Part shown: in pieces, positions 11,564-62,378 of the stretch
Numbering within the stretch: position 1 is the first letter of the stretch
Layout of the letters: each line of letters begins with the position of its first letter
DNA from: Butyrivibrio sp. FCS014
GTDB taxonomy: Bacteria; Bacillota; Clostridia; Lachnospirales; Lachnospiraceae
NCBI RefSeq assembly: GCF_000526935.1
Contig: NZ_JAHA01000008.1
Span: forward strand, 1-64,000
DNA length: 64,000 bases
Reading direction: 5' to 3'
Position numbers and translations under genes: made by a program
Notes under the pieces: generated by a model
What the model was told of the DNA's origin: nothing
The model's input: only the letters and a program-made list of their open reading frames with translations
The model's database searches: none

Positions 11564-11808
11564 TGTGCTCCTCCGGATTATTTATAGTATAGGCTGCGGA
11601 TCGCAGGTGTGGCAGTAAGTTACCGCCCCGGCAGTTGTCTCCGGGTGGCCGGTGCTGTGTCTTCCTGTGATGCGCAGGCTTAGTCATGTATCTGTATGAT
11701 TATAGCACAATGTTTAACAGTTTACATCATTAAAGTGGCATGTGAATCGGGGAGTGGTTAGATGAATGGCGACGCGGGATGATTATGAATTGTCTGCTTT
11801 GATATATT

Positions 11809-12604: not shown

Positions 12605-12744
12605 ATATAGCTCCTAAAATGTGATAATGCGCTTTGAACGCCTAGAACCGGCGCGCATTTTCTAAGAATATCTTAGACATTTGGTTATTATAATTGACAT
12701 ACTGGTAGAGTGTCAATCATTTATATTGCTTTAAGTATATGATG

Positions 12745-13092: not shown

Positions 13093-13105
13093 AATATTAG
13101 CGCCC

Positions 13106-13153
13106 AAACCGCCGCATAAGCAGCTACACAAACCGCCGCATAGGCAGCTACAC
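13106..13153. repeat. Two direct copies of a 24-base sequence downstream of mfd
   Basis: Each copy begins AAACCGCCGCATA and ends GCAGCTACAC; they differ at one position. They lie between array 1 and the mfd stop. A Cys-rich open frame reading through them has no ribosome site and is not called. Confidence 0.7.
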
Positions 13154-13225
13154 AAGCAGCCAATCAAAACCGCCCGCACAAAACAGCACAAAACGCAAGT
13201 ACCGCACTCAGCACTCGCCAATCCC

Positions 13226-16870
<3,645 letters not shown>

Positions 16871-47174: not shown

Positions 47175-48864
47175 AAACACTCGTTTTAGATCCATTATCA
47201 TGTCCACGATCATAGCCTGGGCTATTATCATACTGTGCTTCATCTGTCTCACCTTCAAGGAAAACTACCCCATCTATATTCTGGATGATGGCTGGACTGC
47301 CCATATAAACGGTATAAAAACCGAGAATGTTACTCTTTCGAAGTTCTATAAAGTAAAAGACGGCAGACTCCTTCGCGGAGACACGATCACATTAACAAAA
47401 GAGCTTCCTCAAACCGAGGATTTTGATTTCCCTGTTATCCTCTTTAGAAGCAGATACACAACCCTGGATGTTTACCTGGATGATGACCTGATCTTCACCT
47501 TCGGTGATAACCTGTATGATAAAGAACTGTTCATAGGCAAGATGTATCATTTTATATCATTGCCGGAAGATTACGCAGGAAAAACTCTTACCTTTAACAT
47601 GCGGGTTGGGGAGAACAACGCCTTCCAGAATCTGGCTCCTCCCCGTCTCGGAGGCCAGCCTGATATAGAAGGAGAGTTCCTCCATAAAAACATGACTATT
47701 ATCTTCACCGGAATGTTCATGATAGTATTTGGCGTGGCATTCCTGTGCATCACCATTTTTTATTTCACCTCAGTGCCGGAGATAAGAACCTTTATGTTCA
47801 GTTCCATGTTCTGCATCAACATCGGCGCCTGGCTTCTGACCTATTACAACGTTCTGAGCCCCTTTATCTACACTGAGCACGAGACCTTTGTAGAGTACTT
47901 TACCCTTTATCTTATTGTGCCCTACTGTTATCTCATCTGTTACTGCATACAGAATGTTGAACGCAAAAAGCTCTTCTTTACAGCTGCGGCATTGAGCTGT
48001 GCCGTAACTCTGATCCAGTACTTACTGCACTTTGCATTCAACATTCATTTAAGAGCCACTCTGCCCATGTATCACGCCTGCTGCGTTGGCGGATTTATTC
48101 TGCTTGCTTACTATACCGTTAAAGATCTCCGCTCCCGGGATATCGGCCCCTCAAATTCAACCCAGATGCTGGGACTGATTACCTTTTCAGTTTCGGAGAT
48201 CTTTCATCTGGCATTTTACATGTTAGAAAACATCCATCTGAAGTACCCTGAAATGCTCAGCATTCTGATCATCACCTTCGGCTGTCTGATGTTTGCTTTC
48301 TGCCAGCTGGCCAACTACCTGATGTACATCACCCAGTCCTACGCCCAGAAGCAGGAATACGCATCTCTGTCGAGACTGGCCTACGAAGACGGCCTTACGG
48401 ACCTTCCCAACAGAGCCCGTTCCGACAAAGAGCTTTTAGACCTCGACAAGACAGACACCGACTACTGTATCATAAGCATTGACCTAAACGGCCTTAAGTA
48501 TGTTAACGATAAGTTCGGACATCCCTCCGGCGACAAGTACATCAAGGACTTCTCCAAGGTTCTCACCAGCACCTTTGAAGATCAGGGCTTCTGCGCCAGA
48601 ATCGGCGGCGACGAGTTCCTGGTGATCATCAATGACTCCGAGGGAAAAGACATATCGGCTCTCATCGGACGGATGGAAAGTGCCCTTAATGTCATGAACG
48701 CCCTCTACCCCGAGTACCACCGCAGCGTTGCCACCGGCTATGCATTCCGTCATGAGGGAAAAGAGGATACGACCTCCCACGAGATCTACCTTATGGCCGA
48801 CGAGCGCATGTATGCGAAAAAAAGACGGATGCACGAGGAACTGGGCATCCGGCAGAGACTGTAA
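47161..48864 (+). CDS. Second membrane diguanylate cyclase, paralogue of the preceding gene
   Basis: 567 residues from the ATG at 47161; upstream in-frame ATGs are too close to the AGGGAGG site. Same layout as its neighbour: one helix, extracellular domain (YTTLDVYLDDDLIFTFGDNL), seven helices and GGDEF (DGLTDLPNRARSDKELLDLD; RIGGDEFLVII at about 482). Both have a conserved ENNAF motif before the membrane block. A tandem duplication with divergence is clear. Convergent with the enoate-reductase-like gene across an IS-split terminator. Confidence 0.9.
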   Translation: MKIFKNTRFRSIIMSTIIAWAIIILCFICLTFKENYPIYILDDGWTAHINGIKTENVTLSKFYKVKDGRLLRGDTITLTKELPQTEDFDFPVILFRSRYTTLDVYLDDDLIFTFGDNLYDKELFIGKMYHFISLPEDYAGKTLTFNMRVGENNAFQNLAPPRLGGQPDIEGEFLHKNMTIIFTGMFMIVFGVAFLCITIFYFTSVPEIRTFMFSSMFCINIGAWLLTYYNVLSPFIYTEHETFVEYFTLYLIVPYCYLICYCIQNVERKKLFFTAAALSCAVTLIQYLLHFAFNIHLRATLPMYHACCVGGFILLAYYTVKDLRSRDIGPSNSTQMLGLITFSVSEIFHLAFYMLENIHLKYPEMLSILIITFGCLMFAFCQLANYLMYITQSYAQKQEYASLSRLAYEDGLTDLPNRARSDKELLDLDKTDTDYCIISIDLNGLKYVNDKFGHPSGDKYIKDFSKVLTSTFEDQGFCARIGGDEFLVIINDSEGKDISALIGRMESALNVMNALYPEYHRSVATGYAFRHEGKEDTTSHEIYLMADERMYAKKRRMHEELGIRQRL

Positions 48865-48931: not shown

Positions 48932-49732
48932 CTAGGCTGAACACATGGATGCTATCCTGTATTGTACAGGTGGCATCCATTTTGTTTTTGCCTGAATTCT
49001 TTTGTTATTGTAGTAATCTATATATTCTTCAACAGCGTTTGAGAATTCTTCGAAAGAAGCATACTCTTTCTCATAGCCATAATACATCTCATTTTTTAAT
49101 CTTCCAAAGAATGTTTCCATAATACAATTATCATAGCAGTTACCTTTTCGTGACATAGATTGGATAATGCCATGTTCTTGTAAAGCATTTCTATAATAAG
49201 CATGTTGATACTGCCAGCCTTGATCAGAATGTAATATAAGGCCTTCAATTGAAGGAAATTTACCAAAAGCTTTATTTAACATTCTCTCTATCTGCTCAAG
49301 ATTAGGACTCATAGATAAATCATATGAAATGATTTCATTTGTATTCATATCTAGAACTGGCGATATATAACACTTTCCCCATGAAAAGTTAAATTGGGAT
49401 ACATCTGTCGTCCATTTTTGTAAAGGCGCAGTTGTACTAAAATCTCTATTTATTATGTTATCAGCAATCTTACCCACCTCACCCTTATAAGAGTGATATT
49501 TCTCTTTCGGTCGCTTACCAGCCAATCCAGATTCATGCATGAGACGCTGAACACGTTTATGATTTACTTGGTATCCACGATTTATCAATTCCTGATGGAT
49601 TCGCCTGACACCATATCTGCGTTTATTCGATTCAAAAATACTTTTTATTTCTTTCAGTATATCTTGATTGCGTTCAGCCACAAGGTCTTCCTTACCAATC
49701 TCAAAATAGTAAGTCGATCTAGCTATATGCAT
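48932..49732 (-). CDS. IS3-family transposase OrfB (DDE integrase core)
   Basis: 266 residues. An HTH_21-type N-terminal part (RRYGVRRIHQELINRGYQVN) is followed by the rve integrase fold with its DDE triad: WTTDVSQF, LILHSDQGWQYQ and DNCIMETFFGRLKNE. It is normally made as an OrfAB fusion by -1 frameshifting. AAAAAG runs near the end of orfA (about 49795) are candidate slip sites, and the frame upstream of ATG 49732 encodes IIKELRENGYKLKHLLKA, which supports a fused product. Confidence 0.92.
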   Translation of the reverse strand: MHIARSTYYFEIGKEDLVAERNQDILKEIKSIFESNKRRYGVRRIHQELINRGYQVNHKRVQRLMHESGLAGKRPKEKYHSYKGEVGKIADNIINRDFSTTAPLQKWTTDVSQFNFSWGKCYISPVLDMNTNEIISYDLSMSPNLEQIERMLNKAFGKFPSIEGLILHSDQGWQYQHAYYRNALQEHGIIQSMSRKGNCYDNCIMETFFGRLKNEMYYGYEKEYASFEEFSNAVEEYIDYYNNKRIQAKTKWMPPVQYRIASMCSA

Positions 49733-49749
49733 AGCTTTAAGTAGATGCT

Positions 49750-50319
49750 TTAGTTTGTATCCGTTTTCCCTGAGCTCTTTGATGATTGCTGCTTTTTCGC
49801 CTTGAGTCGCGCAGCTTCCTTTTCTTCTCTCAAGGCGATCTCTTTTTTTATTACTTCGATTTCAGCTTTCATGTATTCGTTTTCAGCTCTTAACCGAATT
49901 AGCTCTTCGTACTCAGATTCATTGGGTTTTGGAGGTTTTCGCGTTCCTACTTTTTTCATATATGGGTTCTTTGATTTACGACCTTTCTGTTTTGGTATAA
50001 GACCATTATAACCATATATCTTATACTTGCGGACCCATTGATAAAGCTGTCCATCAGAAATACCAGCTGAAAAAGCAACACTTTTGTTAGACTCACCAGC
50101 CAAAACACGTGCAACTAAGGCATAACGTTCCTCTGGAGTCCATTCCTTATTATGATTTTTATGTCTTAAAGCATCTGAACCACACGCTTCTTCAATTCTA
50201 ACCCATTCTCGTATCTTATCATGAAATCTTGCAGTCCCTATTCCATCTGGGGTGTCAGGATATTCACCACGATAATACATTTCCACACATTTTCTTTTGA
50301 ATTCGTAACTATAGCGCAT
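49750..50319 (-). CDS. IS3-family transposase OrfA (helix-turn-helix)
   Basis: 189 residues from the ATG at 50319 behind AAGGAGG (MRYSYEFKRKCVEMYYRGEY). The helix-turn-helix WTPEERYALVARVLAGESNK with ISDGQLYQWVRKYKIYGYNG binds the IS ends. The C-terminal half is a leucine-zipper-like coiled coil (YEELIRLRAENEYMKAEIEV). Confidence 0.88.
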   Translation of the reverse strand: MRYSYEFKRKCVEMYYRGEYPDTPDGIGTARFHDKIREWVRIEEACGSDALRHKNHNKEWTPEERYALVARVLAGESNKSVAFSAGISDGQLYQWVRKYKIYGYNGLIPKQKGRKSKNPYMKKVGTRKPPKPNESEYEELIRLRAENEYMKAEIEVIKKEIALREEKEAARLKAKKQQSSKSSGKTDTN

Positions 50320-50413
50320 AAAAATACCCTCCTTACTGTTTTGTCCAGTAAAGAGGGTACATATCATTCATTCAAGAAAAAACCTGCTTTTTTATACCCT
50401 TATTATCAGATTA

Positions 50414-52477
50414 TCAGATCTTCATGGCAATATCCCATGCGCCCCAGATTGCGGAACGAACATTTCCTACCTTTGCACAGTCGCCAAGGAGGTGTACATT
50501 CTTGGCTGCCTGGATAAGAGGAATGGGATGATATCCTACAGACATGATCACGCTGTCAGCGGGAAGAGTAACTGTTCTTCCGTCGCCTGTACCAATCTCA
50601 ACTGACTTCTCGGTAATAGCATTAACTCTTGCCTTGAGGTATACAGGAACTTCGTTGGTCTTGAAGCAGTCACGAAGGTAGCTGGTGTTGGCCAGACACA
50701 TATTCTTAACTGCGATAAGGTCATCCTTCATCTCAACGATCTGAGGGTTCTTGCCCTTTCTGAAAAGATCAAGAGCGATCTCACAACCTGTAAGACCTCC
50801 GCCGATGATGACTACATCCTTGCCGACTTCTTTTTTGCCAAGGAGATAATCTGTGGCGTCCATTGCGTAGTCTGCTGCGCCGGGGATCGGGATCCTGTTG
50901 GCCTCAGCACCTGTAGCAATGATATACTCGTCAGCCTGAGGAAGGCTGTCGGGCTTAACTTCGTAGTTGAAGTGGATCTTAACGCCAAGCTTCTGAAGCT
51001 GATGCTTCTGCCATGCGATAAGCTGTTTATCCTTCTCTTTGAACTCGGGAGCTGCTGCAGCTATGAATACGCCGCCGAGCTCTGAAGTCTTCTCATAGAT
51101 CTCGGGATCATGTCCACGGAGAGCAAGGATTCTTGCTGCTTCCATACCACCGATACCACCGCCGATGATGGCAACCTTCTTGGGATTCTCGGTGGGAACA
51201 ACCTTATATTTCTTGGACTGCATGCTGCGAGGGTTAACTGCGCACTTGCACATTCCGGCTGACTCGGAAAGATCCTGATCGTTGGCTGTTCCGTTGTGCT
51301 TGGTTAAGTTAAAGCATGCTGCGTGACAGCAGATGCAAGGACGAATCTCGTCCTCCATGCCTCTCTCAAGCTTGGCAACCCACTTGGGATCTGCCAGGAA
51401 CTGACGGCCTACAGCCATAGCGTCTATGCCGCCCTTCTTGATGGAAGCTGCACCAACAGCGGGCTCCATCTTACCGGCGCAGACAACGGGAATGTCAACA
51501 AACTTCTTGATGTGCTCAACATCCTCGAGGTTACAGTTCTGAGGCATGTACTGCGGGGGATGAGCCCAATACCAGGCATCATAGGTTCCGTTATCGCAGT
51601 TAAGCATATCGTAACCGGCATCCTGAAGGAACTTTGCAGCCTTCTCGGACTCTTCCATATCTCTTCCGATCTCCTCAAAGTCCTCTCCGGGCATAGCGCC
51701 GTACTGGAAGGCCTTTGTCATGGATCTTACAGAATAACGAAGAGAAACAGGGAAGTCGTCGCCGCACTTGTCCTTGATTTCTTTAACGATCTCAGCAGCG
51801 AAACGGTAACGGTTCTCAAAGGATCCGCCGTACTCGTCTGTTCTGTGATTGGTGTACTTAAGTGTGAACTGGTCAAGGAGGTATCCCTCGTGAACAGCGT
51901 GAACTTCAACGCCGTCAACTCCGGCTTCCTTGCAGAGCCTTGCGGTCTCGCCGAAAGCATAGATGATATCCTTGATCTCTTTTTCTGTTATTGCACGGGT
52001 TGTTACATCATCAGCCCATCTGTTGGGAAGAACTGAAGGTGCAGCTGTAAGGTACTCAGCATCAATATAGGGCTTAGCCAGTGTGTTGAGAGCCTTATTC
52101 TTTGCAAGCATTGCAAGAGGTGCTGTCAGGGCAAAAGACCTTCCGAATCCGGCAGTCATCTGCACAAACATCTTAGCTCCTGTTGCATGAAGCTCATCCA
52201 TGAACTCAGCAAGTTCTTTGAACTTGCGCTTGTTCTGATAGAGCCACTTTCCGCCCAGCATATCCTTAACGGGAGCAATGCCGGGGATGATAAGTCCGCA
52301 ATCATGCTTGGCTATCTTAAGAAGGAGTTTTGCGGCTTCCTTGTCGAAGTGGCTTCCGCCGGGCTCCATCCAGCCAAAGATGCAGGTTCCGCCCATAGGG
52401 GCAAGGACAATACGGTTCTTTATTTCCAGATTCCCGATTTTCCACGGGGTAAAGAGTGATTCATACTCCTGCTTCAT
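50414..52477 (-). CDS. Enoate reductase-like Fe-S flavoprotein (Old Yellow Enzyme family)
   Basis: 687 residues: an N-terminal FMN TIM barrel (LFTPWKIGNLEIKNRIVLAP; DGVEVHAVHEGYLLDQF; HRTDEYGGSFENRYRF), a [4Fe-4S] site from CICCHAACF (about 380) and MCKCAVNP, then an FAD/NAD(P) domain (VAIIGGGIGGMEAARILALR; DVVIIGGGLTGCEIALDLF). This is the 2,4-dienoyl-CoA reductase/2-enoate reductase/BaiCD architecture. Enoate reductases hydrogenate the double bond made by 2-hydroxyacyl-CoA dehydratases in reductive amino-acid pathways, which fits the operon. It starts 2 bases after the preceding stop and is the last gene of the operon. Confidence 0.9.
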   Translation of the reverse strand: MKQEYESLFTPWKIGNLEIKNRIVLAPMGGTCIFGWMEPGGSHFDKEAAKLLLKIAKHDCGLIIPGIAPVKDMLGGKWLYQNKRKFKELAEFMDELHATGAKMFVQMTAGFGRSFALTAPLAMLAKNKALNTLAKPYIDAEYLTAAPSVLPNRWADDVTTRAITEKEIKDIIYAFGETARLCKEAGVDGVEVHAVHEGYLLDQFTLKYTNHRTDEYGGSFENRYRFAAEIVKEIKDKCGDDFPVSLRYSVRSMTKAFQYGAMPGEDFEEIGRDMEESEKAAKFLQDAGYDMLNCDNGTYDAWYWAHPPQYMPQNCNLEDVEHIKKFVDIPVVCAGKMEPAVGAASIKKGGIDAMAVGRQFLADPKWVAKLERGMEDEIRPCICCHAACFNLTKHNGTANDQDLSESAGMCKCAVNPRSMQSKKYKVVPTENPKKVAIIGGGIGGMEAARILALRGHDPEIYEKTSELGGVFIAAAAPEFKEKDKQLIAWQKHQLQKLGVKIHFNYEVKPDSLPQADEYIIATGAEANRIPIPGAADYAMDATDYLLGKKEVGKDVVIIGGGLTGCEIALDLFRKGKNPQIVEMKDDLIAVKNMCLANTSYLRDCFKTNEVPVYLKARVNAITEKSVEIGTGDGRTVTLPADSVIMSVGYHPIPLIQAAKNVHLLGDCAKVGNVRSAIWGAWDIAMKI

Positions 52478-52479
52478 GG

Positions 52480-53205
52480 TTATTCCTTTCCTGGTTTCTT
52501 TTTTCCAAGATGTAATTCCTTCATGCCCTCTACTTCGTCACATACGGCTTTCATGCTGCAGTGTCCGCAGTCTGTGGGCATTCCGTCCAAAATATGGGTG
52601 AGAGTTCTTGTGATCTTGTCGACCTTGTCGGCATTTTCCCGAAGACTCTCAACGATCTTTTTGTCAGTGATAAAGATGACGCGCACCTTCTCCACCTGGC
52701 TTACTTCCTTGTACTTGGAGATATAAGTGGCACCGACTTTTGCAAAGTCGATCTTCTTCCTGAGGGCTTCAGAGCTTATACGAACCTGCTCCTGATTGCT
52801 CTGGGAAGAAACCCTTACCATATATCCTTCAGGAAAAACATGGTATCTTACGAACTCAAGATTTCGGATGGCCTGGAAAGCCTTCTCCTGATCCTGGTCC
52901 TCTCCAAGGTCAGAGGTCTTAAGCATCACAATTCTGGCAAAAGCAGTACTTCCTGTTATAGCCGGTATATCTTTTCCCACGATAAGGACTTCGTCCTCGG
53001 TGATGCGGTCTGAAGTGGTGACCATAGTGTAGTTAACAGAGGGCTCTCCCGCTCCGCCCAGCTCAAGGCCTGCGTCTCTTTGCATGATAAATTCACTCTC
53101 TGCAAGACACTTCCATGCGCTGCCGGGGGCATAAGGCACCTTATTAACAGGTGCCTCCTTAAGAGCCTCCATAGTGGCGTCAATTATGTTGTCGTATAAT
53201 TTCAT
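52480..53205 (-). CDS. Acetyl-CoA synthase middle-domain-like protein with a CxxCxxxxxC cluster
   Basis: 241 residues from the ATG at 53205 (MKLYDNIIDATMEALKE). LELGGAGEPSVNYTMVTTSD with EVLIVGKDI, and later RVSSQSNQEQVRISSEALRK with VEKVRVIFITDK, parallel in order and spacing the middle (A2) domain of acetyl-CoA synthase/CdhC as I remember it. The end TDCGHCSMKAVCDEVEGMKE carries Cys 213, 216 and 222 where ACS has the first cubane cysteines. The rest of the ACS active-site domain, including the CGC nickel ligands, is absent. It is not a broken gene: it ends normally and is tightly packed in the operon. Role unknown; perhaps an Fe-S electron carrier or CoA-binding subunit. Confidence 0.7.
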   Translation of the reverse strand: MKLYDNIIDATMEALKEAPVNKVPYAPGSAWKCLAESEFIMQRDAGLELGGAGEPSVNYTMVTTSDRITEDEVLIVGKDIPAITGSTAFARIVMLKTSDLGEDQDQEKAFQAIRNLEFVRYHVFPEGYMVRVSSQSNQEQVRISSEALRKKIDFAKVGATYISKYKEVSQVEKVRVIFITDKKIVESLRENADKVDKITRTLTHILDGMPTDCGHCSMKAVCDEVEGMKELHLGKKKPGKE

Positions 53206-53221
53206 TTCAAATACCTCTTGA

Positions 53222-53389
53222 TCAGAACCTGATATCTGCTTTCTTGCGATCAAATATCTTATTTACCTGAGTGTAAAGCCAGGCCATAAGCTTCTGGTCA
53301 AGATTCCAGAAATAAATCACGAACAGTATCCCTGTAACGATAATAAGGATCTTACAAATTTTGAAAATGATCTTAAATGTTTTGCTCAT
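53222..53389 (-). CDS. Small one-helix membrane protein, paralogue of the one at 61154
   Basis: 55 residues from the ATG at 53389 (AAAGGA upstream). A single hydrophobic helix, ILIIVTGILFVIYFWNLDQK, is followed by a basic tail ending KKADIRF. ILFVIYFWNLDQKLMAWLY closely resembles ILFAVFYWDLDGKFLYYIW of the 72-residue protein closing the divergent operon. Having one beside each dehydratase-like pair suggests a membrane anchor or small subunit of these complexes. It is flanked by gaps of only 16 and 26 bases. No family is known to me. Confidence 0.7.
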   Translation of the reverse strand: MSKTFKIIFKICKILIIVTGILFVIYFWNLDQKLMAWLYTQVNKIFDRKKADIRF

Positions 53390-53415
53390 CTCAAATAGGT
53401 CCTTTCATGCACTGA

Positions 53416-54210
53416 TTATTTTGCAAGGCCTTTCTGTCTTGCGTACTCAGCTGCACCCAGAGCTCCCATAAGCTGAGGATCTGTGCTGAGGTCTACAACC
53501 TTGAGCTTAAGTACCTGCTCGATAGCAGCCTTAAGTCCAGCATTCTTAGCACATCCACCTGTAAGTGTGATGGAATCTGTAGCGCCTGCCTTCTTGGACA
53601 TTACGAAACATCTCTTAGCAACAGCCATCTCGATACCTGCTGCGATCTCGTCCATGGGCTTTCCTTCACCAACAAGAGTTATAACCTCAGACTCAGCAAA
53701 TACTGTACACTGAGCTGTGATAGGAATAACGTTCTTAGCTGAAAGTGAAAGGTTTGAGAACTGCTCAAGGCTCATCTCGAATGATCTTGCCATAGCCTCG
53801 AAGAAACGTCCTGTTCCGGCTGCGCACTTGTCGTTCATGGCGAAGTTCTTAACTGTTCCGTCTGTGTCGATGGAGATACCCTTAACGTCCTGTCCACCGA
53901 TATCGATGATAGCCTTAACTGAAGGGTTTGTTACATGTACGCCCATAGCGTGGCAGGAAATCTCAGAGATATTCTCGTCAGCAAAAGGAACCTTGTTACG
54001 TCCGTAACCTGTACCGATAAGGTACTCCAGATCCTTGGCTGAAGAAAGGTCTGAAACCTGTCCTACAACCTCGTTCATAGCCATCTTGGCTGACTCTTCA
54101 GCAATAATCTTGCTCTTAACAGTGGTATTAGCTACCATCTTTCCGGTTTCGTCTATGATCACAGCCTTTGTATAGGTTGATCCCACATCACATCCGCCAA
54201 AGTACTTCAT
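53416..54210 (-). CDS. 2-hydroxyacyl-CoA dehydratase activator ATPase (HgdC/BadF family)
   Basis: 264 residues from the ATG at 54210 behind AGGAGG. The actin-like ATPase fold has GGCDVGSTYTKAVIIDETG, IIDIGGQDVKGI and LTGGCAKNAGL. The two cysteines that share a [4Fe-4S] cluster across the homodimer are Cys129 (NDKCAAGTGRF) and Cys168 (QCTVFAESEV). Such archerases use ATP to push a low-potential electron into the dehydratase. It is the only activator in the window, so it probably serves both dehydratase-like pairs. Confidence 0.93.
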   Translation of the reverse strand: MKYFGGCDVGSTYTKAVIIDETGKMVANTTVKSKIIAEESAKMAMNEVVGQVSDLSSAKDLEYLIGTGYGRNKVPFADENISEISCHAMGVHVTNPSVKAIIDIGGQDVKGISIDTDGTVKNFAMNDKCAAGTGRFFEAMARSFEMSLEQFSNLSLSAKNVIPITAQCTVFAESEVITLVGEGKPMDEIAAGIEMAVAKRCFVMSKKAGATDSITLTGGCAKNAGLKAAIEQVLKLKVVDLSTDPQLMGALGAAEYARQKGLAK

Positions 54211-54300
54211 TTTGTAAATCCTCCTAAAAAACATTTTAAAATAATTAGTTATCTATGTTACACGGATTGCTCCGCTTCGCTCTCGCGTTTCATCCCTGTA

Positions 54301-56076
54301 TCACCATGTGGTGTCGTCTTCGAAATCCACCAGTGAAGGGTCTACAGGCTCAGCCTTCATAACGGTTCTCATGAACTCGTTAACCTCGGCTCTCATATCT
54401 TTTCTTGAAACAGTTCTGGGATCCATCAGATCGTGGCTGCACCAAAGAAGCTTGATGCCTCTTTCTCTTGCCTGATCCTCGAAAAGACCCTGAACGGTAG
54501 CCATGTTCTTGCAGGATACGTGCTGATACATAAGAACGAAATCAACGTTCCATGCTTCGCACTGTCTCCAGAGCTCGGTTACTACGTGATCGTATCCACC
54601 GTTGGTGTGACGTCTCATAACCATACGCTCGTAGAGTCTTGCAAGGTCCTTAAGGGCCTCGTCCTTGTTCTCTGTCTCAAGAGGCTTTGTGAAGTTCAGT
54701 GACTCCATCTCAACCAGTATATCTACTCCCCAGCAGTTAGCCATCCAGTTGGAGAAGTTAGCATAATAGTGTGCCGGGATTGACCATACGATGGCTCTGT
54801 ACTTCATCTTGCCGCGCCATGCCTCATCCCTGTTCTCATAGGCCTTGAGCATAAGCTTGTCAACCTTCTGGAATGTAGAGATGATTCTGGGATCAAGTCC
54901 GCCGTCCATCTCGTAGTTCCACTTACGGAACAGCTCGTAGCAAGGTCCGATGAGCTGCGGGTAAGGAGTCTGGTTGATCTCCCATTTCTGAAGCTCGTAC
55001 TTGGTCTCGGTGTTGAAACGCTTCATTGCTGCGAAGTAAGCGTCCCAGTTCCACTTGGCACCTGTATTTTCCTCGATGAACCTGATACATCCTCTTATGT
55101 CTTTTACCGCTGCATCCATGATGGACTCGTCTTCGTAACGAACCGGGAATGCCAGGTGGTAAGTAGGCAGATCCTTGAATCTGCGGCTTGTGTAGGATGA
55201 TGCCATAACAGATCCGTCACAGGGCATTGAGCTTGAAATGAAGCATGCTCCCATGTGAGGAAGAGCATCCACAACTACCGCACCGCACTCTGATGAAGGA
55301 ACAGGGCAGGTATCGGAAGGAAGTCCGTAGGACTCAATTGCGTCGATGTATGGCATACAGGCCAGCTGATCGATCTCGGACAAAAGAAATACCGGCATAA
55401 GCTGATAAGGTATTCCGATGAGGTCAGGGAAACCTGCCATGATCTGTGACATTGTCATCTCATCAAAGAGAACGATTTTCTTGGAAAGTTCCTTACTGTT
55501 ACCGACTTTCTCATCTGCCTTCATAAGAAGAACCAGGTTCTCCGCAACATATCTGAAGATCGCATAGATGAGCTCGTGGTGCATCTGAAGGGCTCTGCCT
55601 CTAAGACCGAGAGTGTTCTTGTCCATGAAGGAGTGACAGCAGAAGTATGAAACCATCCATCTGTAATGAACTGCACCCATCATAGCGGGAACAAGGTCCT
55701 TGGAGAAAGTACCAAGAAGCATTCCCCACATTCTGGCCCACTCGTAGAAGTCGTAGCCGGTGTCCTTGACACCTCTCCACTCACGTCTTACGGTGGCCAT
55801 CTTGCCGTTGGCATAGAGCTTACCAAGCTGCTTCTCTCCGTTGATCATGAAGTCCTTGAATTCCTCGGGGCTCATGTTCTTAAGAAGATTTGCCTCATGT
55901 TTGAGACGCTTGGTAAATCCCTTTGCGTCCTGGCCCATTGACTTGGCAACATCCTTCCAGTCTGTTTCCTTGATAAGGTCGCCTACGATACCGGCGATCT
56001 CTTTCATGTTATCTGCCTGGGCCTTCCAGTTTATCTGATCCTTGAGCCTGAAGTTCTTGGGATCTATATACTTCAT
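54301..56076 (-). CDS. 2-hydroxyacyl-CoA dehydratase/benzoyl-CoA reductase-like large subunit (copy 1)
   Basis: 591 residues; its ATG overlaps the stop of the 397-residue partner (ATGA). The family HgdA/HgdB/BcrBC is seen in CHSFMDKNTLGLRGRALQMH, the conserved cysteines in ACMPYIDAIESYGLPSDTCP and MPCDGSVMASSY, and the C-terminal domain DFVLMYQHVSCKNMATVQGL with LLWCSHDLMDPRTVSRKDMR. At 591 residues it is larger than typical subunits (370-480), with an extended N-terminal part (first about 100 residues, Lys-rich). Paralogue of the 563-residue protein at 59448. The substrate is not readable; typical substrates are 2-hydroxyacyl-CoAs or aromatic CoAs, and some relatives carry double-cubane clusters. 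Confidence 0.85.
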   Translation of the reverse strand: MKYIDPKNFRLKDQINWKAQADNMKEIAGIVGDLIKETDWKDVAKSMGQDAKGFTKRLKHEANLLKNMSPEEFKDFMINGEKQLGKLYANGKMATVRREWRGVKDTGYDFYEWARMWGMLLGTFSKDLVPAMMGAVHYRWMVSYFCCHSFMDKNTLGLRGRALQMHHELIYAIFRYVAENLVLLMKADEKVGNSKELSKKIVLFDEMTMSQIMAGFPDLIGIPYQLMPVFLLSEIDQLACMPYIDAIESYGLPSDTCPVPSSECGAVVVDALPHMGACFISSSMPCDGSVMASSYTSRRFKDLPTYHLAFPVRYEDESIMDAAVKDIRGCIRFIEENTGAKWNWDAYFAAMKRFNTETKYELQKWEINQTPYPQLIGPCYELFRKWNYEMDGGLDPRIISTFQKVDKLMLKAYENRDEAWRGKMKYRAIVWSIPAHYYANFSNWMANCWGVDILVEMESLNFTKPLETENKDEALKDLARLYERMVMRRHTNGGYDHVVTELWRQCEAWNVDFVLMYQHVSCKNMATVQGLFEDQARERGIKLLWCSHDLMDPRTVSRKDMRAEVNEFMRTVMKAEPVDPSLVDFEDDTTW

Positions 56077-57266
56077 ACAGAGGCCTCCTTCCTGATCCGC
56101 TTGATCTCAAGGGCCTCAACAAAGGCCTGGAAGCGGGTCCTCAACTGTCCTGAATTATATACATTGTATGAGCGGTCGATTGAAAGTGTAGGCCAGCCAT
56201 ACTCCTCTGTAAGGATGTGGCTTGCCAGAGGTCTCTCAAATGCCCAGAAGTCACAGTACTTCATCTGTTCAAAGATGATACCGTCGGCATTGAACTCTTT
56301 TGCCAGACGATCTGCTGTGTCACGCCTCTGCTGGATCTTCTCCTCTGCCATGTATCTGGGGCACTCGGAGGTCATCATGTAGTGACGGGCGATCTGCTTG
56401 ACGATATCCTCGTCGTCGTTAAGTACGATCTCTTCTCTTCCGGGGAAAGAACCGTAGCAGTACCTGTCGGCTACTACCATGGCGCCTGACTCCTCAAGAA
56501 GTCTTGTGAAGTTCAGATCGTCTATCTCCGAACCCACAACGGCAACCCTTGCTCTGAACCAGGGCTTGGAATCAACCTTTCTCTTTTTGATCTCTGCAAG
56601 AGTCTCCTCAAGAAGAGGAAGAATCTTGGATGTAGGGCATGTATAGCTTACAAGGCAGATCACATGGAACTCATATCCGGTGATGGGGGGATTGTCCATC
56701 TTCCTTAAGTTTCCGATCTCTGTGATAACGCGGCAGAGCTTGTTGTGCTCCTCCACTGCCTTGCGGATGGATTCATCCGAAACGTCGGTTCCGAGTTTCT
56801 CATGCATCACATCCAGAAGTCTGAGCCTCATCTGAGTGGCTACCTGATCTACGTTATAACTTTCTACTTTGTAAGGCACATCTGTGTGGGTTACAAAGAA
56901 GTGAGGCTTGTTGTTGCAGTTGAGCACCTCGAGGTGCTCATAGCAGCGGTTCATGGCTGAGCATGCATCCACGCCGGCAACTCCGTCCAGGTAACCGTAT
57001 CCTCCCTCAATTCCTCTCTCCAGAAGTGCTCTGGCAAATTCACAGGTGTAATTGGACATGTAATAGGTCGCAATGTCTATTGAACCTGTTCGCGGTGCGC
57101 GCATGCGGGTTGAAAAACAGTTGTCTACATTAAGCAGTACTTCCGGCATATGGTAGCATGTATATCCGATGGCATACTTGCCTTCCGCCTGTGCCTCTTT
57201 GACCAGGTCGTTAGCGGCTTCATCCAAAAGCTTTTCAAAGGTGATTAAATGTTTTAAATCCTGCAC
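56073..57266 (-). CDS. 2-hydroxyacyl-CoA dehydratase/benzoyl-CoA reductase-like small subunit (copy 1)
   Basis: 397 residues from a GTG at 57266 (GGAGG five bases upstream). GYTCYHMPEVLLNVDNCFST near the N-terminus with RAPRTGSIDIATYYMSNYTC is the family's active-site region; conserved cysteines recur in VDACSAMNRC, SYTCPTSK, DRYCYGSFPG, SECPRYM and MKYCDFWAFE. The C-terminal QLRTRFQAFVEALE is shared with copy 2 at 58255, and the two proteins align end to end. It is paired with the 591-residue subunit, as HgdA with HgdB. Confidence 0.88.
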   Translation of the reverse strand: MQDLKHLITFEKLLDEAANDLVKEAQAEGKYAIGYTCYHMPEVLLNVDNCFSTRMRAPRTGSIDIATYYMSNYTCEFARALLERGIEGGYGYLDGVAGVDACSAMNRCYEHLEVLNCNNKPHFFVTHTDVPYKVESYNVDQVATQMRLRLLDVMHEKLGTDVSDESIRKAVEEHNKLCRVITEIGNLRKMDNPPITGYEFHVICLVSYTCPTSKILPLLEETLAEIKKRKVDSKPWFRARVAVVGSEIDDLNFTRLLEESGAMVVADRYCYGSFPGREEIVLNDDEDIVKQIARHYMMTSECPRYMAEEKIQQRRDTADRLAKEFNADGIIFEQMKYCDFWAFERPLASHILTEEYGWPTLSIDRSYNVYNSGQLRTRFQAFVEALEIKRIRKEASV

Positions 57267-57287
57267 GGCTACCTCCTTTCCATAGCT

Positions 57288-58049
57288 TTATAGTATTTTT
57301 AAATTTTCAAGGGCTGTCGTCGCGCCCTTTAAGATTCCCGAATCTGCAGGAAGCTCAAATACGTTCTTCCCTTCGATGTCGTTCTCGGTCATGGTGTCAT
57401 CCTGCGGAATAACGGAAACCACGGGAACTCCGCCGATCTCCTTCTGGGTTATACGCTCGGGGAGCGGTGCCCTGTTAACCACCAGGCCTGCCTCTTCATA
57501 CATCACCAGCTCGTCAGCAACCTGACGGATGGTCTCTATGATACGAAGACCCTTCTGACTCTGATCGGAAACGCATACAAGATGTGTGACCTTCTCGAGA
57601 ACTCTTCTATTAATTTGTTCTATGCCGGCCTCTCCGTCGATAACAACGTAATCGAAGTCGTCAACCAGCATCTCGATAACCTGCTTCAGATAAGTGTTGA
57701 TGGCGCAATAACATCCCGCCGCCTCCGGGCGTCCTATGGCCAGAAAAGCAAATCCGCGCTTCTCCTCCATAGCTTCATAGAGCCTGAATTTAGCCTCCGC
57801 AAGAATGTCCTGGGTATCCTTAAGTTTGCCGGTAACGTCTTCGGCAACTCTCTTCCTTATCTGATCTAAAGTTTCTCCTACTTCTACCCCTAACGCAACA
57901 GAAAGACCTACCGCCGGATCCGCATCTATGGCAAGGATCTTGGCGTCAGGCCTCTTTTCCGTAAGGAGTCGTACAAAGGCAGCAGAAAGAGAAGTCTTAC
58001 CAACTCCGCCCTTTCCGGCCAAAGCAATGACTACAGTATTCTCTGACAT
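57288..58049 (-). CDS. CooC-type nickel-insertion ATPase (MinD/ParA fold)
   Basis: 253 residues from the ATG at 58049 (MSENTVVIALAGKGGVGKTS). The deviant Walker A GKGGVGKTS, AIDADPAVGLSVALG and the nickel-site motif GRPEAAGCYCAIN with Cys113 and Cys115 match CooC of CO dehydrogenase maturation, where the CxC pair binds nickel in the dimer. DFDYVVIDGEAGIEQINRRV completes the fold. It is the first gene of the left operon, 21 bases before the small dehydratase-like subunit. No CO dehydrogenase is present in the window, so its client is an open question. Confidence 0.9.
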   Translation of the reverse strand: MSENTVVIALAGKGGVGKTSLSAAFVRLLTEKRPDAKILAIDADPAVGLSVALGVEVGETLDQIRKRVAEDVTGKLKDTQDILAEAKFRLYEAMEEKRGFAFLAIGRPEAAGCYCAINTYLKQVIEMLVDDFDYVVIDGEAGIEQINRRVLEKVTHLVCVSDQSQKGLRIIETIRQVADELVMYEEAGLVVNRAPLPERITQKEIGGVPVVSVIPQDDTMTENDIEGKNVFELPADSGILKGATTALENLKIL

Positions 58050-58093
58050 ATCACTCCTCATAAAGAAAATCTAACTTAAATCCCCTATATTCT

Positions 58094-58128
58094 AATATAT
58101 TAAATTTGTTACACTTTCACAAGTGAAA
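58094..58128 (-). promoter_or_regulatory. Promoter of the left operon overlapped by a palindromic operator
   Basis: Minus strand: TTGTGA (58122-58117), 17 bases, then TATATT (58099-58094). The 14-base palindrome TTTCAC-AA-GTGAAA at 58115-58128 covers the -35. It is in the 200-base gap between the two divergent operons and could bind a regulator of both. Confidence 0.55.
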
Positions 58129-58254
58129 TTATAAAAAATTTATAAACATTTTGGGGTTTATATGATATGATATGGATGTATTCTTATGAGAACAAATAGT
58201 TGTGTCAAATTAAATTTTAAGAGTACAACACAATAATTAGGGGGATAACTCTAG

Positions 58255-59448
58255 ATGAAAGATCTCGTGCACATTTTTGAGCTCGAAGACCTTTTGCAGG
58301 AAGCAAACAACCCGTTGGTCCGTCAGGCGAAAGCCGACGGTAAGCGCGCTCTCGGCTATACATGTAACTTCATGCCTGAAGTGCTGCTTGACCTCCCGGG
58401 CTGTTTTTCTGTGCGTCTTCGTGCACCTCGTAGTGGATCGCCTGACATGGCTACCTACTATATGACCAACCGTACCTGCATGTACGGACGTTGCCTTTTT
58501 GAGAGGGCTCTCGAGGGAGGCTTCAACTTCCTTGATGCTCAGATGGCAACAGAAACCTGTACCGTTACCTGCAGATTCCAGGAACATTTACAGCTTATGG
58601 ATGTCATCAAGAATCCTGATTTCTTCTGCGAATTCACCGATGTACCATTCAAAAAGAATGAAAACTCCATTGAACATTATGAAGAGCAGCTTCGCTTCCA
58701 CGTTCTCGACAAACTCAAGGAGCACTTCGGAATTGACACCAGTGACGAAGCACTTTTGAAGGCTATTGAAGAGCACAACGAAGTATGCCGTCTCATTCAG
58801 GAGATTGGAAGTTATCGTAAGCTTGACGAGCCCACCATCACAGGATGGGAGTTCTCTGTTATTCAGCTGTGTACTCTGGTTTGTCCCAAGTACCTTATCA
58901 TTGACAAGCTCAAGGACATCGCCAAGCAGCTCAAGACCAGAAAGCCCGATGCAACCAAGACCTACAAAGTTAAGGTTGTTCTTACCGGCTCCGAGGAAGA
59001 CGATCCTGATTTCATCAAACTGATCGAGGAGTGCGGCGCCCTTGTTGTGGCAGACCGTTACTGCTACGGTTCCCTTCCCGGAAGAGATGAGATCGTGGTA
59101 AAAGAGGGTGAGACACCCCTGCGCGCCATCGCACGCCACTACCTTGAAAACAGCCAGTGCCCTCGTTTCATGGATCAGCACATCATGCGTGAGCGCAAAC
59201 AGTACCTGGCAAACGTAGCCAAGGAGTACAAAGCTGACGGAATCATCATTTCACAGATGAAGTTCTGCGAGTACTGGAGCTATGAGCGTACAATCGATAC
59301 CCTGATTCTCCCCAGAGACTTTGGCTATCCCGTATGCTCTATCGAGAAGGAATATGTCAACAACGCTGTAGGTCAGCTCAGAACCAGATTCCAGGCGTTC
59401 GTTGAGAGCATTGAGCTCAAAAATATACAGAAGGAGGGCCAGGCATAA
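58255..59448 (+). CDS. 2-hydroxyacyl-CoA dehydratase/benzoyl-CoA reductase-like small subunit (copy 2)
   Basis: 397 residues behind AGGGGG, exactly the length of copy 1. GYTCNFMPEVLLDLPGCFSV, RAPRSGSPDMATYYMTNRTC, ATETCTVTCRFQEHL, QLCTLVCPKYLIIDK, DRYCYGSLPGRDEIVV, SQCPRFMD and MKFCEYWSYERTID keep the cysteine pattern of copy 1. QLRTRFQAFVESIELKNIQK ends it. It is the first gene of the rightward operon, divergent from the CooC gene. TAATG couples it to the next gene. Confidence 0.88.
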   Translation: MKDLVHIFELEDLLQEANNPLVRQAKADGKRALGYTCNFMPEVLLDLPGCFSVRLRAPRSGSPDMATYYMTNRTCMYGRCLFERALEGGFNFLDAQMATETCTVTCRFQEHLQLMDVIKNPDFFCEFTDVPFKKNENSIEHYEEQLRFHVLDKLKEHFGIDTSDEALLKAIEEHNEVCRLIQEIGSYRKLDEPTITGWEFSVIQLCTLVCPKYLIIDKLKDIAKQLKTRKPDATKTYKVKVVLTGSEEDDPDFIKLIEECGALVVADRYCYGSLPGRDEIVVKEGETPLRAIARHYLENSQCPRFMDQHIMRERKQYLANVAKEYKADGIIISQMKFCEYWSYERTIDTLILPRDFGYPVCSIEKEYVNNAVGQLRTRFQAFVESIELKNIQKEGQA

Positions 59449-61139
59449 TGAAGATCAACTTAGGTGATATTAAAGCCAAATACCGCGAACTCTTCGTCGT
59501 AGAAAAGAGCCCTGAAGAAGCAAACAAACCCAAAGATTTCAAGAAGATGGCCAGTGATTTCTGGAACGGCAAGCCCCACGAAGAGAGGCGTCTTGGAGAT
59601 CTCTACGTTGGAAACACAGGTCTTTACAAGCACCGTGAGTGGCGTGGAGTCAAGGACACCATGTACTACTTCAACATGATCTGGCTTTACAACTACGCTC
59701 ACATGGTTTCCGATATCATGAAGTATGGCCATGGCCCCAAGGGCGTTGTTACCTTCGCCAAGGGAACCATGAGATACCGCTGGATGGGTCAGACCTACCT
59801 CACTGTTATGCACTGGTTCGACAGAGGACTCGAAGGTACAAGAGGCGAAGCCATGAAGGCTTCAGCCTGGCACTACCGTGGTATGGTAAGTGAGACCATC
59901 AGACAGTTCATGAGAATGTTCGAAGCCGACAAGAAGATCAACGGCGGCAAAGAGAACGAGACCTGGAAAAAGACAATTGCCCACAACGAGACACTCAGCG
60001 GCAATATCTTTTACGGATGGAGAGATCAGCTTGATGACGTAGCTCTTGAGATGATCCCCTACTTCGTTTCCGTACACGTAAACAACCACACAGTTCTTAA
60101 CTATATTGATGCAGCTCAGTCAATCGGCCTTCCCGCAGATCCATGCCCTATGTGCCAGGCTGAGTACGGACTGTTCGTTCAGGACGATTACCCTGATTAC
60201 AGCCCTGTAATGCTTACAACCAATGAGGCCTGCGACGGATCTGTTGCTACTTCCGTTCTTCAGGACTGGTTCCTTAACCGTCCTCTTTATGCAATGCCTC
60301 AGCCCATGAGATACGATGATCCTCTCGTTCAGAAGCACTGCCAGAAGGAGATTGAGGGTGCATGGAAGTTCGTGGAAGAGAACTTCGGCATCAAAATGGA
60401 TTGGGATCAGTATGTTAAACATGCTCAGAGCTTCAACAAGCTCACCGAGTTTGAGTGGGAGAAATGGGATGTTGCAGCCAACACTCCTTACTATCCTATC
60501 AACGGTGTTGCTCAGGCTCTTTACAGAATCTACTACTCACAGGATGGTGACAGACCCATCTGGCATGAGATGGATGAGCATGTAAGACGCATCATGAACA
60601 AGACAGTCAAGAACAAGATTGAGACCTTCCCCAAGACCAGACACCGTGCCATCGCATGGAGCTGCGCACCTCTTTACTATTCCAACTGGTGCACATGGGC
60701 TTACAACTGCTGGGGTATCAACTGCGTCATCAACATGGATTCACTTATGTTTGACCAGTATCTTAGAACAGATACTTACGAGCATGCTCTTGAGGATCTT
60801 TCCTGGTTCAACGAGAAGGCCCCCATGCGTGCAATGGCAGTAGGCGGTCACGAGCATATTCTTTCACTGTTCGATTACATGGAGAGATTCAACTGCGACA
60901 TGGTCATCATGTACGATCAGCTTCAGTGTAAGGGAATGCAGGGTATCCACGGCGTATTCGAGGATGAATTCCGTAAGCGTAACATCCACGCCATCTGGGT
61001 TCCTCATGCTCTTCCCGATAAGAGAACCGTATCCAGAGCGGAGATCCGCGATATCATAAATGATTACATGTTCACCGTAATGCGTGAGGAGCCACTTGAT
61101 CCTTCACTTCTTGATTTCGATGACTCTATGAGCTGGTAA
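59448..61139 (+). CDS. 2-hydroxyacyl-CoA dehydratase/benzoyl-CoA reductase-like large subunit (copy 2)
   Basis: 563 residues. The pattern matches copy 1: HREWRGVKDTMYYFNMIWLY, NYIDAAQSIGLPADPCPMCQ, TTNEACDGSVATSVLQDWF, AYNCWGINCVINMDSLMFDQ, CDMVIMYDQLQCKGMQGIHG and HALPDKRTVSRAEIRDIIND. In copy 1 the CPMCQ position reads CPVPSSE, so cluster ligation may differ between the pairs. The C-terminus LDPSLLDFDDSMSW mirrors VDPSLVDFEDDTTW. It must share the activator at 53416 or use one elsewhere. Confidence 0.85.
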   Translation: MKINLGDIKAKYRELFVVEKSPEEANKPKDFKKMASDFWNGKPHEERRLGDLYVGNTGLYKHREWRGVKDTMYYFNMIWLYNYAHMVSDIMKYGHGPKGVVTFAKGTMRYRWMGQTYLTVMHWFDRGLEGTRGEAMKASAWHYRGMVSETIRQFMRMFEADKKINGGKENETWKKTIAHNETLSGNIFYGWRDQLDDVALEMIPYFVSVHVNNHTVLNYIDAAQSIGLPADPCPMCQAEYGLFVQDDYPDYSPVMLTTNEACDGSVATSVLQDWFLNRPLYAMPQPMRYDDPLVQKHCQKEIEGAWKFVEENFGIKMDWDQYVKHAQSFNKLTEFEWEKWDVAANTPYYPINGVAQALYRIYYSQDGDRPIWHEMDEHVRRIMNKTVKNKIETFPKTRHRAIAWSCAPLYYSNWCTWAYNCWGINCVINMDSLMFDQYLRTDTYEHALEDLSWFNEKAPMRAMAVGGHEHILSLFDYMERFNCDMVIMYDQLQCKGMQGIHGVFEDEFRKRNIHAIWVPHALPDKRTVSRAEIRDIINDYMFTVMREEPLDPSLLDFDDSMSW

Positions 61140-61153
61140 TACGGAGGTATATT

Positions 61154-61372
61154 ATGAAAACTATCGGCAAAATACTTTTTAAAATCTTAGGAATCGCAGC
61201 ACTGATCTACGGTATCCTCTTCGCAGTATTCTACTGGGATCTGGACGGAAAGTTCCTGTACTACATCTGGGAACCCATGATGATCAAGCGTTTCGACAAC
61301 ATGGAGAGAAAAGATGCAACTGCAATGCCTTACTCCATGAAGGAAAACGTAGAAGCAAATTTCGAGGCTTAA
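61154..61372 (+). CDS. Small one-helix membrane protein closing the rightward operon
   Basis: 72 residues with GGAGG upstream. The helix IAALIYGILFAVFYWDLDGK is followed by YYIWEPMMIKRFDNMERKDA. Paralogue of the 55-residue protein at 53222, with the shared core ILF-x2-x2-W-x-LD-x-K. It starts 14 bases after the large subunit. Function unknown; a membrane tether for the dehydratase-like complex is inference. Confidence 0.75.
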   Translation: MKTIGKILFKILGIAALIYGILFAVFYWDLDGKFLYYIWEPMMIKRFDNMERKDATAMPYSMKENVEANFEA

Positions 61373-61382
61373 GAAAAAACGA

Positions 61383-61415
61383 GGACCGTCACACTTCGGT
61401 GTGGCGGTCCTTTTT
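61383..61415. terminator. Bidirectional terminator between convergent operons
   Basis: GGACCGTCACAC-TTCG-GTGTGGCGGTCC (61383-61410) with one G-T pair, followed by TTTTT on the plus side and TCGTTTTTT on the minus side. Confidence 0.92.
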
Positions 61416-61428
61416 GGTGGGCGGGACG

Positions 61429-61611
61429 TCAGCAGTCAATCCTTATCACAGCTCCTGTAAGGTCTGCAAATTTGAGGCTTCCCTTAAAGGTCTTGCGCTC
61501 TCCCATAAGGTTGGTGAGAGTGATCTCTTCGCCGTCGATATTGATGGCACTGACATATTCCATTAATACTTCATCGGGATTTGACTCCCTGTAAGCTGTT
61601 GAAAGACACAT
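61429..61611 (-). CDS. cooT: CooT-family nickel-binding protein
   Basis: 60 residues starting MCLSTAYRESNPDEVLMEYV; Cys2 and the whole small beta-barrel pattern (INIDGEEITLTNLMGERKTF) match CooT, a dimeric Ni(II)-binding protein of CO dehydrogenase maturation in which Cys2 ligates nickel. It is the last gene of the pgm unit, 12 bases after the lipoprotein. With CooC and the His-rich protein nearby it points to nickel delivery. Confidence 0.85.
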   Translation of the reverse strand: MCLSTAYRESNPDEVLMEYVSAINIDGEEITLTNLMGERKTFKGSLKFADLTGAVIRIDC

Positions 61612-61623
61612 AATTTTTACTCC

Positions 61624-61962
61624 TTAATATGCATGTACTGTTCCGTTAAGGGACAGCTCCGGATAACCCAGTTTAATTCCCATTGCAATAACGTCATTGG
61701 GATTGTCATCAGTGTGGAAGGTGGCAACTCCGTAGGAAAACTCCACCAGTGTTATTCCATACTGCTTGGCGATAGCCTCAGCCTCTTCCTGTGTATCTAC
61801 AAGGCAAAGCAGCTCTTTGCCCTCAACGTAGTCGCTCTCCACATTAGCTCCCGGTTTTTTTCCCGCAGAATTTCCTGAGGCATTCTGACATCCCACCAGC
61901 AGTGAAACAGCGACAGTCACTAGTATAAATCCCTTTAGCAGTCTTGCAATAGTTCTTTTCAT
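61624..61962 (-). CDS. Small lipoprotein with an I9-like fold
   Basis: 112 residues from the ATG at 61962. The signal peptide has a lipobox, VAVSLLVGC, so the mature protein is lipid-anchored outside. A Ser/Asn/Gly linker precedes a domain of about 65 residues (DTQEEAEAIAKQYGITLVEF, GVATFHTDDNPNDVIAMGIK) that looks like the ferredoxin-like inhibitor-I9/subtilisin prodomain fold. No protease gene is adjacent. The start overlaps the stop of the His-rich gene. Confidence 0.65.
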   Translation of the reverse strand: MKRTIARLLKGFILVTVAVSLLVGCQNASGNSAGKKPGANVESDYVEGKELLCLVDTQEEAEAIAKQYGITLVEFSYGVATFHTDDNPNDVIAMGIKLGYPELSLNGTVHAY

Positions 61963-62378
61963 CACTTAAGTCCTTCCAACGCCTCTTTAAGAGCAGCGTT
62001 TCCTTTTGCAAACAGCTCTTTTGCCTCAGAAACCTTCTGTGCCTGAGCTTCAAAGCCCTGCTCGCCAAGCTTGTCCGCAAGCTTTGACAGTTCATCCTCG
62101 TGACTGGAATTATGCTTGAACATGTAATCCAGAAGGGCGATCATCTGGTCCTTGGTCTCAGGTGTGGGATGATCGTGGTGGTGATGATGTTCATGGTCAT
62201 GTTGATGCTCATGATCGTGAGTGTGCTCATGATGCTCATGATCGTGCTCATCGTGAGAATGCTCGTGTTCATGAGTATAGGTATGTGTATGCTCGTGAGC
62301 ATGCTCCTGTCCGTCATGATCATGGTCATGGGTGTGGGTGTAAGTATGTGTGTGTTCGTGGTTGTGCGTTTCGCTCAT
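61962..62378 (-). CDS. Histidine-rich metal-binding protein (CooJ-like)
   Basis: 138 residues from the ATG at 62378 (GGAGG ten bases upstream). Residues 1-70 alternate His with Asp, Glu and Thr, with 32 histidines before PTPETK. The C-terminal 65 residues are a helical domain (DQMIALLDYMFKHNSSHEDE; LAKGN-type coiled coil LFAKGNAALKEALEGLK). The layout is that of nickel-storage chaperones such as CooJ, but the His-rich part is N-terminal here. It is placed between pgm and the cooT unit. Zinc binding is possible, but the CooC/CooT neighbourhood favours nickel. Confidence 0.75.
   Translation of the reverse strand: MSETHNHEHTHTYTHTHDHDHDGQEHAHEHTHTYTHEHEHSHDEHDHEHHEHTHDHEHQHDHEHHHHHDHPTPETKDQMIALLDYMFKHNSSHEDELSKLADKLGEQGFEAQAQKVSEAKELFAKGNAALKEALEGLK

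Follow-up and report, generated by a model that had tools for sequence, protein, structure and literature searches.

In this work, we have analysed a 64,000-nucleotide stretch of the genome of Butyrivibrio sp. FCS014 (positions 1 to 64,000 of contig NZ_JAHA01000008.1, assembly GCF_000526935.1; here called the window), and in it a gene cluster that joins nickel-handling genes of the type known from carbon monoxide dehydrogenase (CODH) to two pairs of reductase-like subunits. The cluster is bounded by an IS3-like element on one side and by a phosphoglucomutase gene on the other, and its genes lie in three runs. The first, on the minus strand from 58046 down to 50414, codes for a CooC-type ATPase (57288-58046), the small and large subunits of pair A (HAS, 56073-57266; HAL, 54301-56076), an activase of the BadF/HgdC type (ACT, 53416-54210), a one-helix membrane protein (TM55, 53222-53389), a short relative of acetyl-CoA synthase (ACS) of 241 amino acids (aa) (ACSL, 52480-53205) and an OYE-type flavoprotein (ENR, 50414-52477). 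The second, on the plus strand at 58255-61372, holds the small and large subunits of pair B (HBS, 58255-59448; HBL, 59448-61139) and another one-helix membrane protein (TM72, 61154-61372). The third, on the minus strand from 62378 down to 61429, codes for a CooJ-like His-rich protein of 138 aa (61962-62378), a small lipoprotein-like open reading frame (61624-61965) and CooT (61429-61611). Every gene named in an earlier note on this DNA was found within 50414-62378, and profile matches confirmed its two pairs of the HGD-D fold, its single activase, its PF03598 protein and its OYE-type flavoprotein; absent from its list were the two small membrane proteins, one per pair. Our results show that the module is real and widely conserved, and that it is a new combination of known parts.

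CooC, CooT and CooJ are known as CODH factors; 111 CooT homologues are reported, and of the proteomes that contain CooT 85 are reported to encode CODH as well (PMC6006190, in the part of its text available to us). The genome from which the window comes (assembly G000; 4.09 Mb in 22 contigs, 99.97% complete, 3.78% contamination) gave no match to Prismane PF03063 and none to TIGR01702 anywhere in the assembly, and the 241-aa ACSL is its sole match to an ACS domain, so that the absence of CODH and of a complete ACS, described by the earlier note from the window, holds genome-wide. Among 51 ACSL-positive genomes (G000 and the genomes behind 50 of the best 80 loci described below), CODH scored above cut-off in two and gave split or partial matches in two more, two others with weak matches of about 29 bits being left uncounted; the remaining 47 show none, and the locus, carried by bacteria of rumen and gut, is thus kept in species without CODH. 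These data support the idea that CODH-type nickel genes serve a non-CODH client here, and the module offers such a client to CooT genomes that lack CODH. Two other nickel enzymes were tried and rejected as clients. A [NiFe]-hydrogenase profile, PF00374, matched in 25 of the 51 genomes, G000 included, and the 26 genomes without it leave the association with CooT unexplained; every match covers the initial 69-70 positions of the profile, and the matching frames, 359-381 aa long (363 aa in G000), are probably Ech large subunits. Ech and Rnf genes occur in 76% of butyrivibrio genomes (PMC4478896, in part). Urease gave one clear match and two weak, interrupted ones in the 51 genomes, and none in G000.

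Our analysis bears directly on gene content, residue conservation, model folds, linkage and co-occurrence. A scan with 24 ACSL sequences as queries yielded 313 related stretches, and locus work was carried out on the best 80 of these 313, 51 of which had at least 5 kb upstream and at least 2.5 kb downstream of ACSL (the flanked loci). With gene-family models derived from the same loci, CooC was found in all 51, activase in 50, a membrane protein in 50, HAL in 49, HAS in 49, ENR in 46, CooT in 38 and the CooJ-like protein in 33; the same gene set is clustered in dozens of species, which argues for an association beyond chance. In two Butyrivibrio metagenome-assembled genomes (MAGs), ACSL is 96% identical. 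The arrangement varies, since in many non-Butyrivibrio loci the CooJ-like and CooT genes come after ACSL within about 500 bp, ahead of ENR, and in Butyrivibrio loci they mostly lie 8-9 kb from ACSL, at the opposite end of the cluster. Reduced loci also occur (L059, CooC-ACSL-CooT; L069, ENR-CooC-ACSL; L070, CooC-ACSL), with large subunits elsewhere in those genomes. In G192, which carries L059, a second ACSL (L166) accompanies the pair. Extra frames adjoin the module in two Clostridia MAGs, at L069 (288-3431) and L066 (4102-5778), and presumably resemble aconitase-X subunits and an amidohydrolase.

The large subunit goes together with the short ACSL. Its profile, run on 52 chosen genomes, matched in 27 of the 28 with short ACSL and in none of the 24 without it (19 from the genus, which has 52 ACSL-negative genomes, and five with full ACS only), with one to four matches per genome, fragments included. 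The sole miss, G359, has a shorter, more divergent pair next to CooC and ACSL (L161). The order in this distant version, at approximately 8599-14200 and in another family, is CooC-ACSL-activase-activase-large-small, and its large subunit is normal-sized at 466 aa. ACSL occurs in 27 of the 79 genomes of the genus (14 of the 47 high-quality ones) and is single-copy in these 27 carriers. In a phylum sample of 299 genomes its profile matched in 54, the short form being found only in G000 and G359, and the other 52 frames, of 396-814 aa, being mostly full ACS. Among 150 Lachnospiraceae genomes, ACSL-sized proteins were found in 14, CooT in 20 and CODH above cut-off in 30; seventeen of the CooT carriers have CODH, the other three have ACSL without CODH, and CooT was found in none of the 109 genomes with neither. 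Its presence in three of the 11 ACSL-without-CODH genomes corresponds to a Fisher value of 6e-4 with kinship ignored. CooT was found in 47 of the 51 ACSL-positive genomes, and the gene at 61429-61611 is the only CooT match in G000.

What kind of enzyme do the pairs resemble? The earlier note had left them between benzoyl-CoA reductases and 2-hydroxyacyl-CoA dehydratases, and the first affiliation stood whereas the second did not. HAS matches PF06050 with 303 bits and HBS with 291 bits, and HAS aligns with BzdN (8s02_B) at an E value of 3.3e-27, or 5.9e-35 by profile. Its C37, C75, C102, C270, C302 and C338 align with the [8Fe-9S] ligands Cys36, 73, 100, 263, 293 and 327 of BzdN; HBS has the same six cysteines, and these double-cubane positions are kept in 136 of 136 small-subunit rows. 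The HadC-type subunit 3o3m_B has no cysteine opposite C37 and C270 of HAS, both of which are kept in all 136 rows here. Because the small subunits hold all six double-cubane cysteines of BzdN, we read the pairs as reductases and not as dehydratases, and from their sequences they look like ATP-dependent reductases of the BzdNO/DCCP type.

The large subunit HAL consists of a helical N-terminal part of about 160 aa and an HGD-D fold that superposes on BzdO, and its profile reached only DCCP (two sequences) among the sequences of solved structures. C257 and C286, which align with DCCP cysteines, are present in 136 of 136 rows and C522 in 134 of 136, and C448 and H548 are near-universal; HBL (PF06050, 88.7 bits) has C233, C262 and C494, and also C421 and H520. 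By position only, C522 would be the third ligand of a putative catalytic [4Fe-4S] cluster. We dropped an equation of HAL C448 with the double-cubane ligand C270 of the small subunit, as the profile comparison was not significant and the sequence by eye pairs C448 with S260/C260. The activase (PF01869, 185 bits; TIGR00241, 212 bits against a cut-off of 125.4) keeps C129 and C168 in 84 of 84 rows, and we take these to be its cluster ligands. The membrane proteins have hydropathy peaks of 2.69 (TM55) and 2.47 (TM72); 51 of 52 TM55 members and 34 of 35 TM72 members lie above a hydropathy of 1.6, and N29, D31, K33, N43, D47, K49 and F55 of TM55 are kept in 53 of 53 rows. G000 has three large subunits in all, the third pair, on contig C19 (368478-371542; L150, 7979-11043), having its own one-helix membrane protein and no adjoining CooC, ACSL or activase, which fits a shared unit for maturation and activation. 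Where a genome has several pairs, these would be paralogues that each act on a substrate of their own. In G502 the HAL frame at L151 (9466-11240) is broken near its start, the pieces 1-76 and approximately 54-591 lying in different frames; HBL, HBS and the remaining module genes found there appear intact.

In its sequence (PF03598, 39.8 bits against a cut-off of 24) and in its predicted model, ACSL matches the middle domain of ACS. All 31 full ACS examined have this domain followed by C-x2-C-x8-C-x9-C and later by CGC, whereas 14 of 16 short rows read C-x2-C-x5-C-x9-H (Cys213, Cys216, Cys222 and His232 in ACSL); the two rows left both stand for a single G359 protein, which has only the three cysteines. 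The MAFFT alignment superposes the first three loop cysteines of the two forms, and the 16 short rows, compared with the 31 full ACS, end before the part that holds CGC. In ACS, this CGC part binds nickel ions. From the loop alignment and the missing CGC, ACSL has retained the A-cluster cubane loop and shed the CGC part. The loop is the least certain region of the model (pLDDT below 50 at 211-216). What the earlier note described as like an ACS fragment thus forms a separate, conserved family.

The best solved relative of CooC is the CooC structure 3kje (E 6.8e-15), and its best NCBIfam matches, the MinD and ArsA models, both fall under cut-off. Besides the P-loop GKGGVGKT it has the CxC motif that had been noted, at C112-Y-C114 when counted from MSENT and not at 113/115; CxC is present in 63 of 63 rows, and the P-loop residues listed are kept in at least 97%. 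CooT scores above the PF10133 cut-off (56.1 against 27 bits), its MCLSTAY start was verified, and Cys2 is retained in all 45 CooT matches listed; CooT is reported to bind nickel through this residue (PMC6006190, in part). The predicted His-rich protein was also found, with a His repeat and a conserved KHNSSHEDEL region; the core of its family is HN-x2-H-x2-[ED], and from the His-richness and this core we read a putative likeness to CooJ. The frame at 61624-61965, known from its open reading frame call, gave no match in a Pfam search, and its only relative among the first 100 loci is in L002. ENR (PF00724, 193.5 bits) combines FMN, 4Fe-4S and FAD/NAD parts, resembles BaiCD and bilirubin reductase yet falls far under the model cut-offs (NF045599, 366 of 750 bits; NF041087, 341 of 825), and keeps C381, C384, C388 and C412 in 60 of 60 rows.

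The reading that we favour, tentatively, is that the conserved module may well be an ATP-driven, membrane-bound set of reductases whose active sites are completed with nickel. Judged from the sequences, nickel use by the module proteins is likely, and the metal probably ends in the large subunit. We infer metal loading, electron flow and chemistry as follows. CooT and the CooJ-like protein would hold nickel, and the CooC ATPase would hand it on, with ACSL and its cubane-type Cys3-His loop as direct partner or scaffold. Nickel would then reach the large-subunit cluster, where C257, C286 and C522 may bind a site-differentiated [4Fe-4S] and C448 and H548 are further candidates. The activase would spend ATP to drive electrons into the predicted [8Fe-9S] double cubane of the small subunit, from which they would reduce the substrate. 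A precedent is the isr operon of Acetobacterium wieringae, where genes for nickel chaperones accompany that of a putative isoprene reductase; the genome has no [NiFe]-hydrogenase, and the authors propose active-site nickel (PMC10134865, in part); the genes there are HypA/HypB and an FAD oxidoreductase, in contrast to CooC and the benzoyl-CoA reductase family here. If nickel reaches the reductase, it would extend the nickel enzymes beyond their usual classes and bring a new metal to the benzoyl-CoA reductase family.

The module shares features with four known systems and differs from each. With Ni-CODH maturation of the Rhodospirillum rubrum type it has in common the P-loop and CxC of CooC, Cys2 of CooT and a small His-rich protein, but its genes sit beside reductase-like pairs and ACSL, with no CODH client. 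The class I benzoyl-CoA reductases BzdNO and MbdONPQ have the same two-subunit HGD-D fold, an activase and the six small-subunit cysteines (shown for BzdN), whereas the module adds the helical N-terminal part, a Ser for BzdO His131 (by spacing), membrane anchors and nickel-type chaperones, at 13-14% identity in structure alignment. DCCP and its reductase share cysteines at six aligned positions and an activase; in contrast, the module is heterodimeric and scores 133, 132.5, 22 and 32 bits on NF040772, against a cut-off of 350. As in ACS with AcsF, a middle domain with the cubane loop pairs with a CooC-type ATPase, but ACSL has 241 aa versus about 730, no CGC part and a fourth Cys changed to His. 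Our searches of open-licence PMC did not bring up a description of the module, and the main text of PMC13056359, in the portion available, does not mention dehydratase, Lachnospir or Butyrivibrio.

Several observations weigh against nickel in the large subunit. CooC need not be a nickel carrier, given that the R. rubrum CooC is described as not binding nickel and a chaperone role without nickel is discussed (PMC6006190, in part). Ser289, three residues past C286, lies by spacing at the site of the catalytic His131 of BzdO, which forms an acid-base pair with Glu65 there; the comparison of large- and small-subunit profiles was not significant, and the placement of C448 and H548 on the cluster side is conjecture; the HAL model has low confidence around the cysteines; and HAL is interrupted in G502. 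The CGC part, which is the nickel site in ACS, is absent from ACSL. CooT is missing near ACSL in 13 of the 51 flanked loci and the CooJ-like protein in 18, and CooT was not found in four of the 51 ACSL genomes, including that of B. proteoclasticus P18 (L016/G154). In the Lachnospiraceae sample, only four of the 14 short-ACSL genomes carry CooT, and one of these, G026, has it on a contig with full ACS and CODH; this scarcity suggests that a divergent ACSL clade does without CooT.

We favour nickel in HAL and HBL over the possible, less probable reading that nickel goes to ACSL alone, a small Ni-Fe-S protein with a cut-down A-cluster that carries electrons for nickel-free pairs or acts as their cofactor subunit. 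CooC-ACSL is the tightest gene pair of the module, comparable to AcsF and ACS, the cysteine motif of ACSL coincides with the A-cluster cubane motif, and its single copy in the genus contrasts with the one to four large-subunit matches per genome; on the other hand, the CGC part is missing, the fourth Cys is a His that G359 lacks, and G192 carries two ACSL. A further reading, of nearly the same probability as the one on ACSL, leaves nickel out: CooC, CooT and the His-rich protein would handle a different metal here, or serve as chaperones for Fe-S clusters or for folding. CooC falls in the MinD/NifH class, its best NCBIfam matches are MinD and ArsA models under cut-off, CooT is dispensable, and the nickel-free role discussed for CooC (PMC6006190, in part) would agree with this; yet all three CODH-type factors recur as a group in the flanked loci, CooT tracks only CODH or ACSL in the 150 Lachnospiraceae, and the residue reported to bind nickel is kept in the CooT matches listed.

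The alternative that the earlier note had called simpler, a displaced maturation set for a CODH encoded elsewhere in the genome, has next to no probability left: it could draw on the four ACSL genomes with CODH, two of them by split or partial matches only, but with the profile searches empty in G000 and 47 of the 51 genomes without CODH it is already refuted for G000, barring a gene missed by the assembly. A lipid-modifying system producing plasmalogens is highly improbable. The membrane anchors beside the pairs would suit it, and the activase/dehydratase superfamily that includes the pairs also contains the plasmalogen synthase PlsA; against it, a DUF2229 match is present, irrespective of ACSL, in 71 of the 79 genomes of the genus and in 47 of the 47 high-quality ones, in frames mostly of a PlsA-like 1416-1517 aa, and if this protein is PlsA, as we assume, the plasmalogen role looks already filled.

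For the favoured set of nickel-completed reductases, the membrane anchors, taken with what double-cubane enzymes are known to achieve, suggest by analogy a hard-to-reduce lipophilic compound as substrate. Saturation of monounsaturated fatty acids by the pairs is a guess, and we think it unlikely that a nickel-containing benzoyl-CoA reductase relative, loaded by the CODH-type factors, hydrogenates isolated C=C bonds in membrane-dissolved lipids and so would supply the enzyme missing for the final step of biohydrogenation in the rumen, from vaccenic to stearic acid, within the B. proteoclasticus group. Strain Su6 (L015) is presumably a stearate former. The B. proteoclasticus clade is the only known one proceeding to stearic acid, via membrane-associated reductases (PMC4478896, in part), and P18, which forms stearic acid from linoleic acid (PMC4901502, in part), carries the CooC-pair-activase-ACSL cluster (L016). 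Against this stand the few named strains, a trait that follows one clade, the many carriers of unrecorded phenotype, the P18 genome without a CooT match and the interrupted HAL of G502 (probable B316T). The reductase genes are present in a cultured stearate former, P18, and the guess is thus directly testable.

Beyond the module, an IS3-type transposase pair (48932-50367) immediately adjoins ENR, and two tandem GGDEF proteins are encoded at 45399-48864 of the window; a similar protein cluster neighbours 13 of the 80 loci (24 copies).

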